Shown here piece by piece: positions 56,302 to 63,575 of a DNA stretch of 64,000 nt. Both the position numbers and the translations under genes were made by a program. The DNA comes from Sulfurimonas sp. HSL3-1. Its GTDB lineage: Bacteria; Campylobacterota; Campylobacteria; Campylobacterales; Sulfurimonadaceae. Every line of letters starts with the position of its first letter. The stretch's first letter is position 1. The stretch lies in NCBI RefSeq assembly GCF_039645995.1, contig NZ_CP147920.1, positions 1,488,001-1,552,000 of the forward strand. The letters run 5' to 3'. Under the pieces are notes generated by a model that searched no databases, had not been told where the DNA came from, and saw nothing but the letters and a program-made list of their open reading frames with translations.

Positions 56302-56499
56302 TCAGAAGTTCCCGTTGAGAAAATCCGAATCGTTAAGGACTCTCGCTTTTTCAAAGCCGTCCTCGGTTCCTTTCGGATTGGTGGAGAAACCGGCGAGCGA
56401 GCCGCAGTGCGGGCATTTACCTTCATTGAGAAGTGCCAGCTGGTCCAGGGTGATTTTCCCGTTGCACTCCTGGCAGTAGAAGAACGTTTCCTCTTCCAT
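56302..56499 (-). CDS. Small zinc-ribbon protein
   Basis: 65 aa. CQECNGKITLDQLALLNEGKCPHCGS holds two CxxC pairs 17 residues apart, a zinc ribbon. The C-terminal 35 residues (PKGTEDGFEKARVLNDSDFLNGNF) are acidic and probably flexible. It overlaps the end of the CxC copy B gene by a base (TGATG), so it belongs to the same sigma-54-like transcript. Function unknown; the coupling suggests that it works with the CxC protein. Confidence 0.72.
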   Translation of the reverse strand: MEEETFFYCQECNGKITLDQLALLNEGKCPHCGSLAGFSTNPKGTEDGFEKARVLNDSDFLNGNF

Positions 56500-56711
56500 C
56501 AGAAGCTGCCTTCACCGACAGAAATGACGTAGTTGTCGTCGACAGAGATTACGTTGAATTCATGCTTGCCGCAGAAAGATTCGTTAAGCTGCTGCGCCCA
56601 GGCGCGGGCAACCATCAGGGCATTTTCTTTGTCATCAAAGGTCTTGATCTGCGGCATATTATTGCGCTTCGCGCATCCGCACATTTTCTCTACTACAACA
56701 TGGTATTCCAT
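56499..56711 (-). CDS. Small CxC/SFCGKH-family protein, copy B
   Basis: 70 aa: MEYHVVVEKMCGCAKRNN at the start, then QIKTFDDKENA, ESFCGKHEF and VDDNYVISVGEG. It shares the CxC and SFCGKH cores with copies at 29386 and 59906. AAAAAGGATTACAG precedes the ATG, and a sigma-54-like element lies 30 bp upstream. Co-transcribed with the zinc-ribbon gene. The shared cysteines and the promoter suggest a redox or metal role during nitrogen fixation; function is not known. Confidence 0.72.
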   Translation of the reverse strand: MEYHVVVEKMCGCAKRNNMPQIKTFDDKENALMVARAWAQQLNESFCGKHEFNVISVDDNYVISVGEGSF

Positions 56712-56742
56712 CTGTAATCCTTTTTTTGAGTTCCCGTTGTTC

Positions 56743-56758
56743 TGCATACCCCGTTCCA
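56743..56758 (-). promoter_or_regulatory. Sigma-54-like promoter before CxC copy B
   Basis: On the minus strand TGGAACGGGGTATGCA has TGG and TGCA with GG-N10-GC spacing; it differs from TGGCACG-N4-TTGCA at two positions. Expected transcription start is near 56733, leaving a 22-nt leader with the ribosome site. It is nearly the same as the element at 29332-29347. Confidence 0.65.
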
Positions 56759-56879
56759 GAAGCCCCCTTTTCACTCGACTCTATTCTTGAATGCATCATT
56801 TAGCATAAGATTAATATAAATACGTAATATAATTTACGATAATATTCCGCCCCCAAATACCAATTTTCAAGGAATACTT

Positions 56880-58025
56880 TTGATTCGAAAAAGTCTCATG
56901 ATTATGCTCTTCTTGTTGTGGCAGAGCGCTCACGCGTCGACGACAACGGACCTGCAGGGTCTCGTCACCCAGGGCGAAACCCTCAACGGCGAACTCGCCG
57001 CGTTCAGCTTTGCCCAGGAGGGCTCCTGCAGCGAGCTCGGGACACTCAATACGTCTGTGAAGGAGTATATCGCCTCTATCCAGATGGTATACACCCACAT
57101 CCCCTCCCCCTATTCGGTCACTGTTGACGACCTCGATTCCCTCGACAGCCTCGCGGCGCTGGCGCTGCAGATGGCCCAGAACAGTTTCCGCATCTCCACG
57201 GGGCTGCAGACGAGCGGTAGCTGCTATGAACGCTCCAATTTCGAACTGCTGACGGCGGCGATGCTCCGCCTCTCGGACGATATCGGGACCATGGCCGACC
57301 GCATCCTCGAAATGGCGGACCGTATCCTTGTCATGGCCGACAATATCGGCATCATGGCGGACCGTATCCTCATCACCCAGCAGCTGCAAAACGCCAATGT
57401 CCGCCTCACGCAGGAGTCCGTGCTGCAGACGCAGAACAACATGATCGCGCTCAGCGATGCCCTCATGCCGGAGATCTATGACGCCACGCTGGCCGATCTG
57501 ATCACCAAAAGCCAGGCACTTGCCGACGCCATGGCGGCAACGACCCTCTCGGAAACGACGATGGACGTCCAGCTGCAACAGCTCGAAGTCAACGCTTCGC
57601 GGCTGATGATCTCCACAAAAAACCTCTACGAGTGGGCCGCCAAAAACAACCAGCTCGCGGTCATGGAACCCAGCGACGACACCCTGACGATGTTCGGCGA
57701 CCTTTCCCAGATCCACCAGGGTATGGGCGACAGCCTCCAAACCTTCGCAGCCGCCATCGAATCCCTCTCCGATCAGACCGATTCTGCGGTGCTGAAAGCG
57801 GCGATCGCCAACATGCTGAAGCTCAGCTACGACGTCGGCACCATGTCCAACCGCATTATGGAGATGTCGGACAAAATCATCGTTATGGCCGACAACATCG
57901 GCATCATGACCGACCGCATCCGCCAGACCCAGGAGCTGCAGCAGGGGAGCTTCGAGACGATGTTCCACTCCATGTTCAGTGCGCAGAGCGCCATGATCAC
58001 CCTGTTCCAGTCCATGAACCCCTAA
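56880..58025 (+). CDS. Secreted protein with MADRIL-type heptad repeats, copy 1
   Basis: 381 aa with a signal peptide (LMIMLFLLWQSAHAS). Two repeat blocks are separated by about 180 residues: LSDDIGTMADRILEMADRILVMADNIGIMADRILITQQLQ (about 135-175) and LSYDVGTMSNRIMEMSDKIIVMADNIGIMTDRIRQTQELQ (about 315-355), quoted in parts. Each block is a run of seven-residue units (MADRILE, MADRILV, MADNIGI, MADRILI) likely to form amphipathic helices. TTG start with AAGGAATAC upstream. The paralogue at 58035 begins 9 bp after its stop. I do not recognise the family. Confidence 0.7.
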   Translation: MIRKSLMIMLFLLWQSAHASTTTDLQGLVTQGETLNGELAAFSFAQEGSCSELGTLNTSVKEYIASIQMVYTHIPSPYSVTVDDLDSLDSLAALALQMAQNSFRISTGLQTSGSCYERSNFELLTAAMLRLSDDIGTMADRILEMADRILVMADNIGIMADRILITQQLQNANVRLTQESVLQTQNNMIALSDALMPEIYDATLADLITKSQALADAMAATTLSETTMDVQLQQLEVNASRLMISTKNLYEWAAKNNQLAVMEPSDDTLTMFGDLSQIHQGMGDSLQTFAAAIESLSDQTDSAVLKAAIANMLKLSYDVGTMSNRIMEMSDKIIVMADNIGIMTDRIRQTQELQQGSFETMFHSMFSAQSAMITLFQSMNP

Positions 58026-58034
58026 GGAGGCACC

Positions 58035-59201
58035 GTGAAAACATTTAAAAACCCTATGAAATCCCTGCTGCTTTACGGCGCCGTGCTAACCGCTTGGCTC
58101 CCGCTCAACGCAGCGCTGCTGACTGACCTGCAGACCGCCGATGCGAACGTCGCCGCCTTCAAGAGCCAGCTCGAAGCAATCAACCTCGGCAGTGACAGCG
58201 TCTGCGCCCCGCTGCTTCAGGCGAACACTGCGGCGCGCGATCTCGTCAACGAAATCAGCCGTATCGACGCCAGTCTTGCCGCCCCGCTCCAGGTGGACGC
58301 GGAGGTGCTGACGGCGCTCGACCAGTACACCGTGACGGTCCTCAGCCTCTCCAGTGAGGCGCTGAATCTCTCCACGGACCTCCAGATGCTCTCCTCGTCC
58401 ATGAACGCCGCCACCCTGGGCGACGGCATCACGGCGATGCTCCAGCTCTCCGACGATATCGGGACGATGGCGGACCGCATCGGCGAGATGGCGGACAAGA
58501 TCCTGATCATGTCGGACAACATCGGACTGATGGCCGACCGTATTCTCGAGACCCAGCAGCTGCAAAACGACAACGTCGCCCTCACCCAGTCGACCCTGCT
58601 GCAGACGCAGAAAAATATGCTCGCGCTGGTCTCGGTGATGCAATCGAACAGTTTCAACAGTCAACTGGAGGGGCTGAAATCGAGCGGCGACTTCCTGGCG
58701 CAGCGCATGGATGCCGTCAGCCTCACGCCGTGGACGATGTCCATGGAACTCGAAGCCGTTTCCTGGGACGTTCGGCAGTACCTGGGCGAAGTCGAATCCG
58801 TCTATAGCGATATCACGGCCAATTCGGTCCATAACCGTTTCTACGTCTCCGCGGACACCCTGGTCGACCTGGGCAATCTCGCGGTGATGCTCCGCTCCCT
58901 CTCCACCGCGGTGGACGGCTATGTCGTCGCGATCGGCGGCATGGAGTCCATGACCTCAGACCCCACGCTCTACACCTCGCTCAAAAGCATGCTGCAGCTC
59001 TCCGCCGATATCGGGGTCATGGCCAACCGCATCCTCGAAGAGGCCGATCTCATCCTGGCCATGGCGGACAACATCGGACTGCAGGCGGACCAGATCCTTT
59101 CCACCCAGCAGTCGATGAACATGAACATCGCCGCCGTGCAGGCTTCCATTCTCGCCGCGCAGCAGATGGCGATCACGCTCTTCTCCCAGCGGGGCCTCTA
59201 A
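58035..59201 (+). CDS. Secreted protein with MADRIL-type heptad repeats, copy 2
   Basis: 388 aa paralogue of the preceding gene, starting with GTG after AAGGAGGCACC, with a signal peptide (LLLYGAVLTAWLPLNAAL). It has the same plan: LSDDIGTMADRIGEMADKILIMSDNIGLMADRILETQQLQ in the middle and LSADIGVMANRILEEADLILAMADNIGLQADQILSTQQS near the C-terminus (quoted in parts). Between them is a helical region with few landmarks. The pair forms an operon between the efflux genes and nif genes. Probably exported helical, possibly surface or biofilm-related; function unknown. Confidence 0.72.
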   Translation: MKTFKNPMKSLLLYGAVLTAWLPLNAALLTDLQTADANVAAFKSQLEAINLGSDSVCAPLLQANTAARDLVNEISRIDASLAAPLQVDAEVLTALDQYTVTVLSLSSEALNLSTDLQMLSSSMNAATLGDGITAMLQLSDDIGTMADRIGEMADKILIMSDNIGLMADRILETQQLQNDNVALTQSTLLQTQKNMLALVSVMQSNSFNSQLEGLKSSGDFLAQRMDAVSLTPWTMSMELEAVSWDVRQYLGEVESVYSDITANSVHNRFYVSADTLVDLGNLAVMLRSLSTAVDGYVVAIGGMESMTSDPTLYTSLKSMLQLSADIGVMANRILEEADLILAMADNIGLQADQILSTQQSMNMNIAAVQASILAAQQMAITLFSQRGL

Positions 59202-59905: not shown

Positions 59906-60145
59906 CTAGTAGAGTTCGCACGCTTCGACGAAACCGCCCTCTTCGACGGAGATGACAAAGTTGTCGCCCGTCTCCTTGACGTCGAAACCGTGTTTGCCGC
60001 AGAAGCTGTTGTTGAGGGTGTCCGCCCATTCGTACGCATGCTCCTCCGCCTCTTCGCGGCTGTAGAAGCTGCGGATCTGCTCGAGATCCCTTTTTTTCGC
60101 ACAGCCGCAGAGCTTTTCGATGACGACGTGGTACTGCGCAGGCAT
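59906..60145 (-). CDS. Small CxC/SFCGKH-family protein, copy C (nif-adjacent)
   Basis: 79 aa: AQYHVVIEKLCGCAKKRD at the start, then QIRSFYSREEAEEHAYEW, NSFCGKHGFDV and DNFVISVEEGG, closing with EACELY. Third member of the family at 29386 and 56499. It lies 10 bp after the 61-aa gene that follows nifK, which ties the family to nitrogen fixation by position. AAGCCCCACATG precedes the start, a modest ribosome site. Conserved CxC and SFC cysteines suggest metal or redox chemistry. Confidence 0.72.
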   Translation of the reverse strand: MPAQYHVVIEKLCGCAKKRDLEQIRSFYSREEAEEHAYEWADTLNNSFCGKHGFDVKETGDNFVISVEEGGFVEACELY

Positions 60146-60552: not shown

Positions 60553-62103
60553 TTAGCGGATAAGGTCGAAGAAGTAGTCCGTCGTAGCGATACCCTTCGT
60601 CTCTTCGTCGAGCTGATCAAGAACTTTGTTCGTGATCTGAGTGAGCATGTTGAGCGCACCTTCATAACCGCTCAGTGAGTAGCGGTGCAGGTGGTGGCGG
60701 TCAAAGATCGGGAAGCCCATGTAGATGAGCGGAGTACCCGTATCACGCATCAGCTCTTTACCATAAGAGTTACCGATCATGAAATCGACAGGCTCAGTAA
60801 AGAGGAATGAACGCATGTGCCACAGGTCTTTACCTGCCCAGACGTTCAGGTCGTCTTTAGCCGGTGAAGTGTCGAGAAGCGCACGCATCTCATCTTCCCA
60901 GCCGCGCGGTGCATTGTGGCACAGTACGTGTGTCGGTTCCGCACCCATTTCGAGCAGGAAGGAAACAACACCGATCAGGAAGTCAGGGTCGCCCCAGATC
61001 GCGAATTTCTTACCGTGCATGTACGGGTAGCTATCCTGCATTGCATCGACCAGGCGCTGGCGCTCGATCTTCAGTTCTGCCGGGATTTCGTTACCAGTCA
61101 GCTCGGAAAGCTTCATGATGAACTCGTCAGTCCCTTTCAGGCCTACCGGGTTACATGTTGTGCTCTCTTTGGATTTCCAGCGCTTCTGAACCATTTTCAT
61201 GGTTTTCGGAGTCGCGTACTTCTGCAGAGAGATAGTCGCTTTGGAGTTGATACAGTCAGCTGCATCTTCCAGTTTAGTACCGCCGGCGAACATGTTGTAC
61301 TCACCTGCAGGCATATCCCACTGATCAGAGTGGTCGCCGAGCATGATGTAGTCTGCACCCATCTTCTCTACGATCGTTTTGACCGCACGGATAGAACCGA
61401 TGTACGTTTCGAAGCCCGGGATGATGTTGATGCGGTCTTTGACCTCTTCAGTTTTCTTCCCTTCAGTGAGCTGCTGCATTGTACCGTGCATCATGTTGTC
61501 GTAACCAGTGATGTGGCTACCGACGAAAGACGGAGTGTGCGCATACGGGATCGGGAATGATTCCGGAAGGTCAACACCACCGTCTTCCTCTTTCGCTGCA
61601 GTAATGAACGCGTAGAGGTCGTCACCGATGACTTCTGCCATACAAGTGGTAGAAACCATGATCATGTCCGGCTTGTAAACTGCTGCACAGTTTTTCAGAC
61701 CGTCTTTCATGTTGACCAGACCACCGAATACCGCCGCGTCTTCAGTCATAGAGTCGGAAACACACGGTGTCGGCTCTTTGAAGTGACGTGTAAAGTATGA
61801 ACGGAAGTAAGCAACACAACCGTGTGAACCGTGAACGTACGGCATACAGTTCTCGAAACCGAGAGCAACCATGACAGCACCGAGGGGCTGACATGCTTTT
61901 GCCGGGTTGACGGTGATCGCTTCACGCTGGAGGTTTTTCTCGCGGTAATCCCACGTTGTAGTCCACTCAGCGACTTCGGCGACTTTTTCTTTGTCGATGG
62001 CGCCCCAGGCACCCTCGAACTGTTTTTTGTTTGCCAGGACATCCCGGTACTCAGGATGCTGGAAAAGGTTCTTACCGTTGTCGATTTTATCTACATTCTG
62101 CAT
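60553..62103 (-). CDS. nifK: Nitrogenase molybdenum-iron protein beta chain
   Basis: 516 aa. Subunit of the MoFe protein that reduces dinitrogen. The three P-cluster cysteines are in place: Cys71 (PAKACQPLGA), Cys96 (VHGSHGCVAYF) and Cys154 (VSTTCMAEVIGDD). The FRSYFTRHFKEPTPCVSDSMTEDAAVFGG segment is typical of the molybdenum enzyme. The ATG at 62103 overlaps the nifD stop (TAATG) after GAAGGAGAAGCC; the extra upstream codons lie within nifD and are unlikely. The codon use is biased to high-expression codons and differs from most of the window. Confidence 0.97.
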   Translation of the reverse strand: MQNVDKIDNGKNLFQHPEYRDVLANKKQFEGAWGAIDKEKVAEVAEWTTTWDYREKNLQREAITVNPAKACQPLGAVMVALGFENCMPYVHGSHGCVAYFRSYFTRHFKEPTPCVSDSMTEDAAVFGGLVNMKDGLKNCAAVYKPDMIMVSTTCMAEVIGDDLYAFITAAKEEDGGVDLPESFPIPYAHTPSFVGSHITGYDNMMHGTMQQLTEGKKTEEVKDRINIIPGFETYIGSIRAVKTIVEKMGADYIMLGDHSDQWDMPAGEYNMFAGGTKLEDAADCINSKATISLQKYATPKTMKMVQKRWKSKESTTCNPVGLKGTDEFIMKLSELTGNEIPAELKIERQRLVDAMQDSYPYMHGKKFAIWGDPDFLIGVVSFLLEMGAEPTHVLCHNAPRGWEDEMRALLDTSPAKDDLNVWAGKDLWHMRSFLFTEPVDFMIGNSYGKELMRDTGTPLIYMGFPIFDRHHLHRYSLSGYEGALNMLTQITNKVLDQLDEETKGIATTDYFFDLIR

Positions 62104-63575
62104 TAGGCTTCTCCTTCCGTTTCCCAAGGTGCTTTGCTATATCCCCAAACCGGAGAGTTGATCGCGAGGTCCATATCGGATGCGAAGATCGCGAAACCGT
62201 CGAATCCGTGGTACGGACCGCTGTAGTCCCAAGAGTGCATCTGGCGATACGGCAGACCCATTTTCTGGAAGACGTATTTTTCTTTAATACCAGAAGCAAC
62301 GAGGTCCGGCTCAAGTTTCTTGACAAACGCTTCGAGTTCGTATTCGTTGACGTCATCGTAGATGACAGTTGAACGCATGATCTCGTCTTTTGTACGCTTG
62401 TAGTCATCGTCGTGTGCGAATTCGTAACCCGTACCGATAACTTCCATACCGAGGTCTTCGTAAGCACCGATAACGTGACGCGGGCGGAGACCACCGACGA
62501 ACAGCATTACCTGCTTGCCTTCGAGGCGCGGGCGGTATTTGTCGACAACAGCGTTGATCATCGGCTCATACTTAGCGATGACTTCTTCACATTTCGCTTG
62601 GATCTTCTCGTCGAAGAATGCAGCGATTTTGCGCAGAGACTTGTAAGTCTGAGTCGGTCCGAAGAAGTTGTATTCAACCCAAGGAATACCGAACTCTTTC
62701 TCCATGTGACGGGAGATGTAGTTCATAGAACGGTAGCAGTGCAGGAGGTTCAGTTTAACCTTCGGCGTCTGTGCCATTTCTTTGAGCGTAGCATCACCTG
62801 ACCACTGAGCAGTTACACGCAGACCCATCTCTTCGAGAAGGATACGGCTTGACCATGCGTCACCACCGATGTTGTAGTCACCGATGATCGCAACGTCGTA
62901 CTCAGTCGGTTCGATAGCGTCACCCAGTGTTTCAACGTTGCCGTCGAAGACGTAGTCACGGACAGTGTCGTTCGCGATGTGGTGACCCAGAGACTGAGAA
63001 ACACCGCGGAAACCTTCACAGTTAACCGGAACAATCGTGTTACCAGTCGCTTTCGCGTAAACTTTAGAAGTCGCGTTGATGTCGTCACCGATCAGACCGA
63101 TCGGACACTCAGACTGGACAGTGATACCGTTGTTCAGCGGGAACAGTGCGTCGATCTCTTCGAAACAGACAGCCAGTTTCTTGTCACCGCCGAAGACGAT
63201 GTCTTTTTCCTGGAAGTCGGAAGAGAAGTTCATCGTAACGAATGTATCGACACCGGTTGTACCGATGTAGTAGTTACGACGGCCGGCACGTGAGTACTGA
63301 CCACAACCGATCGGACCGTGAGAGATATGAACCATATCTTTAACCGGACCCCAAACAACACCTTTAGAACCGGCATAAGCACAACCACGCTGGCTCATGA
63401 CACCCGGAACAGTTTTCTTATTCGAACGAACGTTACCGCAAGTTTTTTGGCTTTCATCCTCCGGTGAACCTACACCGAGGTGCTTAGCACGATTTTTTGC
63501 AGCTTTCTCCGGGTACGCCTTGAGTACCTCTTCAATCGCTGCTTTTTGTTTTGCTTCCAATGATTCTGGACCCAT
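62103..63575 (-). CDS. nifD: Nitrogenase molybdenum-iron protein alpha chain
   Basis: 490 aa. It carries the FeMo-cofactor and half the P-cluster. P-cluster ligands are Cys65 ([17 protein letters not shown]), Cys91 ([10 protein letters not shown]) and Cys157 ([13 protein letters not shown]). The cofactor Cys is Cys280 ([12 protein letters not shown]) and the cofactor His is in the [13 protein letters not shown] motif, so it is of the molybdenum type and looks active. GAGGAGGATATT precedes the ATG. The stop overlaps nifK. The 117-aa gene lies 48 bp upstream; nifH is presumably beyond the right edge. Confidence 0.97.

Follow-up and report, generated by a model that had tools for sequence, protein, structure and literature searches.

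What kind of protein is made of seven-residue repeats of the MADRI type, and what do two such proteins do side by side? The question is raised by two adjacent genes, A and B, of Sulfurimonas sp. HSL3-1. The window referred to below is the whole stretch of DNA analysed, 64,000 nucleotides long.

The gene pair

56869-56873, + strand: Shine-Dalgarno-like AAGGA 5' of gene A, from the sequence
56880-58025, + strand: gene A (P0001), 381 aa, TTG start, predicted to be exported, two domains
56880-56936, + strand: putative signal peptide of A, residues 1-19, ending in QSAHA before S; hydrophobic N-terminus and AxA-like site kept in orthologues
58024-58030, + strand: Shine-Dalgarno AAGGAGG for B; shares bases with the stop codon of gene A
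58035-59201, + strand: gene B (P0002), 388 aa, GTG start, predicted to be exported, two domains
58035-58112, + strand: putative signal peptide of B, residues 1-26, ending in PLNA before A, from the sequence

The two open reading frames have exactly the coordinates given in an earlier, sequence-only reading, which rightly took them for adjacent paralogues: gene B directly follows A and the proteins share 35% identity along almost all of their length. Since the start of B lies nine bases past the stop of A, and AAGGAGG covers that stop codon, A and B are probably one coupled operon. A promoter scan gave nothing above chance. Both proteins have a hydrophobic N-terminus that ends in an AxA-like site, with no lipobox, and nearly every complete A or B protein shows this AxA-type pattern on inspection by eye. 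The secretion claimed earlier is predicted from signals (AHA before S in A, LNA before A in B) that were likewise judged by eye. The proteins are acidic (pI 4.1-4.3), rich in Met and contain LTQ stretches. Among relatives in the genus, dN/dS is 0.11-0.14 for A and 0.08-0.13 for B. Purifying selection acts on the pair (dN/dS about 0.1); the range of 0.08-0.14 over both genes indicates that A and B are real genes and that the antisense ORF at 56811-57968 is most likely a shadow.

Heptads within a tandem domain

56937-57467, + strand: domain 1 of A (repeat A1), by hhalign and tree
57468-58022, + strand: domain 2 of A (repeat A2), by hhalign and tree
58113-58643, + strand: domain 1 of B (repeat B1), by hhalign and tree
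58644-59198, + strand: domain 2 of B (repeat B2), predicted to be a five-helix bundle (AlphaFold2, pLDDT 91.4, pTM 0.86)
57291-57368, + strand: heptad block 1 of A (MADRILEMADRILVMADNIGIMADRI), by lag-7 and heptad pattern
57843-57920, + strand: heptad block 2 of A (MSNRIMEMSDKIIVMADNIGIMTDRI), by lag-7 and heptad pattern
58467-58544, + strand: heptad block 1 of B, by lag-7 and heptad pattern
59019-59096, + strand: heptad block 2 of B, by lag-7 and heptad pattern

The seven-residue periodicity claimed for both proteins stands out from chance. Identities at lag 7 number 54 in A (26.7 +/- 4.9 in shuffles) and 57 in B (29.9 +/- 5.1), higher than in all 2000 shuffles in each case. With the pattern [MA][AST][DN]xI, heptads start at residues 138/145/152/159 and 322/329/336/343 of A and at 145/152/159/166 and 329/343 of B; their number in the family is three or four. 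The two blocks, described as about 180 residues apart, are separated by 184 residues in both proteins. A QTQxxM stretch, reported after the blocks, is present after block 1 (LQTQNNM in A, LQTQKNM in B) and has decayed after block 2 (FSAQSAM and LAAQQMA).

The heptads are only one part of a larger unit, and the description of the proteins as built on them is not supported. In A and in B, a domain of ~178 residues occurs twice in tandem and the two copies cover almost the entire mature protein, with the heptads forming its conserved C-terminal third, the most conserved part of the repeat. A single copy makes up a third type of secreted protein, C, of about 213-238 residues. In hhalign comparisons, C matches half 1 with E 2e-51 and half 2 with E 9e-50, and half 1 matches half 2 with E 2e-42, which, with the 35% identity of A and B, bears out the duplication proposed within and between genes. 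The maximum-likelihood tree built from single repeats has A1, A2, B2 and C as well-supported groups and B1 as one group with weaker support (79/30; 80% of bootstrap trees). A1 pairs with B1 and A2 with B2, which argues that the internal duplication is older than the gene duplication. So the order, as read from the tree, is doubling of the domain, duplication of the doubled gene and spread of the pair.

Predicted structure and conserved residues

57027-57029, + strand: codon of invariant Cys50 of A; Cys in 17 of 17 A1 repeats (alignment column 33)
58203-58205, + strand: codon of invariant Cys57, the sole Cys of B; Cys in 23 of 23 B1 repeats

A model of full-length B has moderate confidence (pLDDT 75, pTM 0.53) and uninformative structural matches; the second repeat of B was modelled singly instead in AlphaFold2, with 98 aligned repeats as input. 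It is predicted to be a five-helix bundle (pLDDT 91.4, pTM 0.86) with helices at 2-24, 32-61, 70-103, 106-139 and 148-183, in agreement with the all-helical bundle suggested earlier. In this model, helix 4, helix 5 and the invariant (M)ADNIG loop that joins them all carry heptads, so that no continuous rod or coiled coil, as the sequence would have it, is predicted: the MADNIG loop breaks it.

About 20 residues are near-absolutely conserved in full repeats: L117, D122, M140, N143 and I144 are identical in 98 of 98, and more than fifteen further positions are conserved in >90% of the 98. Identity of polar residues beyond the needs of a coiled coil points to a common binding site or interface. 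The domain-1 Cys of A and B sits at the start of helix 2, and Cys is not one of the usual residues at that column in domain 2 (A2, B2) or in C-type repeats. A of this genus has one more Cys (C115), which lies in the region of helices 3-4; C50 and C115 may form an intramolecular disulfide, which would count against the binder reading given below.

Helical bundles resemble one another easily in structure matching, and the fold comparison is to be read accordingly. The best PDB matches of the repeat model in Foldseek are the secreted fungal lipid-binding domains of MP1/AfMp4p, and the Drechmeria protein g7941 (top entries 5j5l, 5j5k, 6zpp, 5ecf, 5fb7 and 5csd). The match to 5j5l has E 2.5e-4 and probability 1.00; TM-scores with the predicted model as query are 0.57/0.65 for 6zpp and 0.55/0.64 for 5fb7, and query TM-scores of the top matches are modest (0.43-0.57). 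The predicted topology thus matches that of MP1-type domains, with modest scores. Profile searches with A, B and the repeat set gave no sequence similarity to MP1 or HsbA; the 25 families listed at E <= 10 for the repeat set do not include Pfam HsbA, which A and B do not match either. Modest TM-scores and the lack of sequence similarity make the MP1 likeness a resemblance, not membership of the family. Foldseek against viral models gave nothing under E 0.01.

A family outside the catalogues

No model in Pfam, NCBIfam or PADLOC and no natural PDB protein explains A or B, in line with the earlier remark that no described family has this repeat. A phage tail or methyl-accepting protein, named there as what might account for the heptads, was not found: MCPsignal, HAMP and phage profiles gave no Pfam match for A or B, and the only PHROG match is weak and to a family of unknown kind (E 7e-4 and 0.0095). 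Apart from a few weak helical matches, PDB sequences gave designed coiled coils only, both attributable to heptad composition, and a literature search for the motif string returned unrelated words only. Phage and plasmid records and viral contigs hold no relatives, which rules out a phage or plasmid trait.

The Pfam family DUF7162 (PF23721) has a weak profile match to the repeats over 27-40 residues, in the heptad part only. At E up to 10 it matches 41 of 98 repeats (best E 2.3e-4). Membership is rejected because the scores of A and B (17.9 and 15.5 bits) are below the curated gathering cut-off of 27, and because the model also gives sub-cut-off matches in unrelated control genomes. The A/B domain is a new, uncatalogued family, and the pair is a mobile two-gene module.

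Distribution and transfer of the pair

A scan of 84,980 species genomes with a pattern of the heptad region found 156 stretches, of which 136 were confirmed; these counts are lower bounds, as the pattern needs a short exact motif. Named genomes contributed 76 distinct loci, whose proteins are 24 of A-type, 26 of B-type and others that are shorter or differently built. The search across Campylobacterota that had been proposed found the motif in 13 of 298 sampled genomes; in the class to which a Desulfobulbaceae MAG belongs it occurs in 20 of 243 sampled genomes, and in that of Thioalkalivibrio in 9 of 369. Named carriers in Campylobacterota include Sulfuricurvum, Sulfurovum, Sulfurimonas and Hydrogenimonas. 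Further ones include Desulfocapsa, Desulfurivibrio and MAGs of Desulfobulbaceae, Desulfuromonadaceae and Geobacteraceae; Thioalkalivibrio, Thiohalomonas, Hydrogenophilales, Chromatiaceae and Thiomargarita; and Nitrospirota, Anaerolineales and Aquificales.

Gene B directly follows A in 24 of 24 loci with a full A, and order and close spacing are kept in Campylobacterota, Thermodesulfobacteriota and Pseudomonadota. No flanking genes are common to the A-B loci as a set, and the window's upstream RND efflux genes were not seen to recur as neighbours elsewhere. Distances between loci correlate for A and B (r 0.89; none of 2000 permutations as high). B of the window shares 59% identity with a protein of a Gammaproteobacteria MAG, against 47-50% with proteins from its own phylum (Sulfurovum or Helicobacteraceae). 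Kept order, differing flanks, these identities and the correlation are best explained by lateral transfer of A-B as a unit between unrelated bacteria. Binning errors in MAGs could explain single cases, though not Thioalkalivibrio sp. ALJT and Sulfurovum sp. AR, which bear no MAG label. The spread and conservation of the pair are more interesting than the heptads themselves: an uncatalogued domain occurs across several bacterial phyla and is concentrated in sulfur-cycling bacteria.

Surroundings and other carriers of the motif

In the window, A-B is flanked by small paralogues at 56499-56774 and 59906-60145 (both - strand) with the pattern YHVVxEKxCGCAKx...NxSFCGKH. Near these lie a tiny Cys-rich protein (56302-56499, - strand) and nitrogenase genes (60553-63575); none of the three small proteins has a Pfam match. 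The same genome encodes a ~700-aa protein (L003, G000:C1:847.6-848.0 kb) in which one MADRI block adjoins a repeat of another kind (ASDAYDFATHMADLAYSFT-like) and which is conserved across the genus as well as in G039. In a Hydrogenophilales MAG (L044:3539-4771), gene A appears as two ORFs split between the domains, by sequencing error or by a natural split.

Other carriers are built differently. Proteins of about 2400 aa in G286 and G287 (L118, L119, L123, L124 and L128) have four or five LRLSDDIGxMADRI copies in very large repeats. In Chloroflexota the motif occurs in probable lipoproteins of 435-525 aa (L084, L087, L090 and L096); in L084 and L087 a gene of the same cluster lies next downstream, which in L087 encodes an FHA-ABC transporter protein. 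In some Sulfurimonas (L081, L082 and L095) a single-motif protein follows a response regulator/histidine kinase pair and uncharacterised genes. Chromatiaceae and Thiomargarita, which form sulfur globules, have motif proteins of 94-148 aa with no evident export signal (L085, L091, L097, L099 and L103).

Proposed function and its rivals

We infer ligand and function from what precedes. The reading preferred here, with a probability of about one in three (0.35), is that A and B are a self-contained, horizontally mobile two-gene cassette for envelope proteins of an undescribed family that jointly bind a hydrophobic ligand or surface. The two would cooperate, either in the periplasm or outside the cell, and bind as the fungal MP1-type bundles do. 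Lining or capping of the putative site would fall to the Met/Ile-rich face of helices 4-5 and to a polar T-Q-Q-N run, and the one Cys in domain 1 may link A to B or bind covalently.

The main rival, a possible one, is a structural or adhesive role, in which the domains polymerise or heterodimerise, through tail-to-tail helices and Cys-Cys bonds, to build a scaffold, sheath or biofilm matrix for attachment in the periplasm or outside the cell. Two-domain repeats, polar residues that are very strongly conserved (D122, R129, E132, D142, N143, Q155 and N161), the ~2400-aa relatives, which have four or five copies, the probable lipoproteins of Chloroflexota and the full-length B model, whose best PDB matches are designed helical-repeat assemblies, all fit such a role. 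It is less easily reconciled with the loci, where neither an anchoring domain nor a sorting signal or secretion gene stands beside the pair and neighbours are not shared, or with the small single-motif proteins without export signal in Chromatiaceae.

Periplasmic ATP-independent chaperones of the Spy/CpxP kind, whose Met-rich helices and LTxxQ-like stretches cradle unfolded proteins, are unlikely. In favour of this kind, A and B are all-helical, acidic (pI 4.1-4.3) and Met-rich with LTQ stretches; however, no LTXXQ profile match was found, the predicted bundle is compact and no cradle, the neighbours include no stress-regulon genes and two paralogues occur every time. A two-component alpha-helical pore-forming toxin of the XaxAB/YaxAB or tripartite SmhABC/AhlABC kind, suggested by adjacent genes for two secreted all-helical paralogues, by one relative with a weak match to the NCBIfam xenorhabdolysin A family (E 0.0086, a single case) and by SmhB/AhlB among low-ranking structural matches, is highly improbable, given those matches' probability of 0.2-0.6 and rmsd above 30 A, a compact five-helix unit with ~30-residue rather than very long helices and without hydrophobic tongue or head, and carriers that include free-living autotrophs.

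Sulfur as a candidate ligand

For A and B as joint binders, the identity of the carriers makes elemental sulfur or polysulfide the first candidate ligand. Carriers are mostly sulfur-cycle taxa, and SoxB is present in the window genome. In the class around Thioalkalivibrio (Gammaproteobacteria), SoxB exceeds its curated cut-off in 8/9 motif-bearing and 140/360 other genomes (p 0.0035, one-sided Fisher test with nine positives and kinship ignored), a result for the motif family, mostly single-domain members, rather than for the A-B pair. In the same genomes narG is not enriched (2/9 versus 60/360). Some relatives, in Chloroflexota or Gracilibacteria, have no obvious sulfur metabolism, some have no export signals, and a habitat in vents and sediments could explain the distribution instead.

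Solid sulfur is hydrophobic. This property, the precedent of HsbA (PMC9394342) and the thiol-bearing outer-membrane proteins proposed to activate S8 in acidophiles, of which the actual proteins are unconfirmed (PMC10045233), make the sulfur ligand attractive. It is tempting to propose that in neutrophilic sulfur bacteria A/B is a paired five-helix carrier, crossing phyla as a module, that would adsorb S8 or polysulfide in Met/Ile-rich pockets while the Cys opens the ring or holds a persulfide. Sulfur is the most speculative step of the mechanism, and this full version is a long shot. The membrane proteins invoked for attachment to and activation of solid sulfur are without experimental confirmation (PMC10045233); for the way in which neutrophilic bacteria achieve both, A-B would offer specific candidate genes and proteins.

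Comparison with known systems

Related to A and B are the C-type proteins (L052-L077; Nitrospirota, Desulfobulbaceae and Gammaproteobacteria), which share the ~178-aa domain but have it once, without the invariant Cys and without a partner gene. Spy and CpxP are Met-rich like A and B, and exported and helical as is predicted for A and B, whereas their architecture is different and A and B have no LTXXQ family match. HsbA has the MP1 fold. With MP1/AfMp4p and HsbA-type proteins, A and B are predicted to share secretion and a five-helix up-and-down bundle in single or two tandem domains; MP1 itself, by its PDB entry titles, has two such domains. MP1p is a lipid binder and the AfMp4p/MP1 domains bind fatty acids, while the fungal HsbA, small and secreted, can both stick to a hydrophobic solid and recruit an enzyme (PMC9394342). 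Unlike these fungal proteins, A and B are bacterial and carry the invariant ADNIG loop and the MADRI heptads, both absent from PDB sequences in the sequence search.
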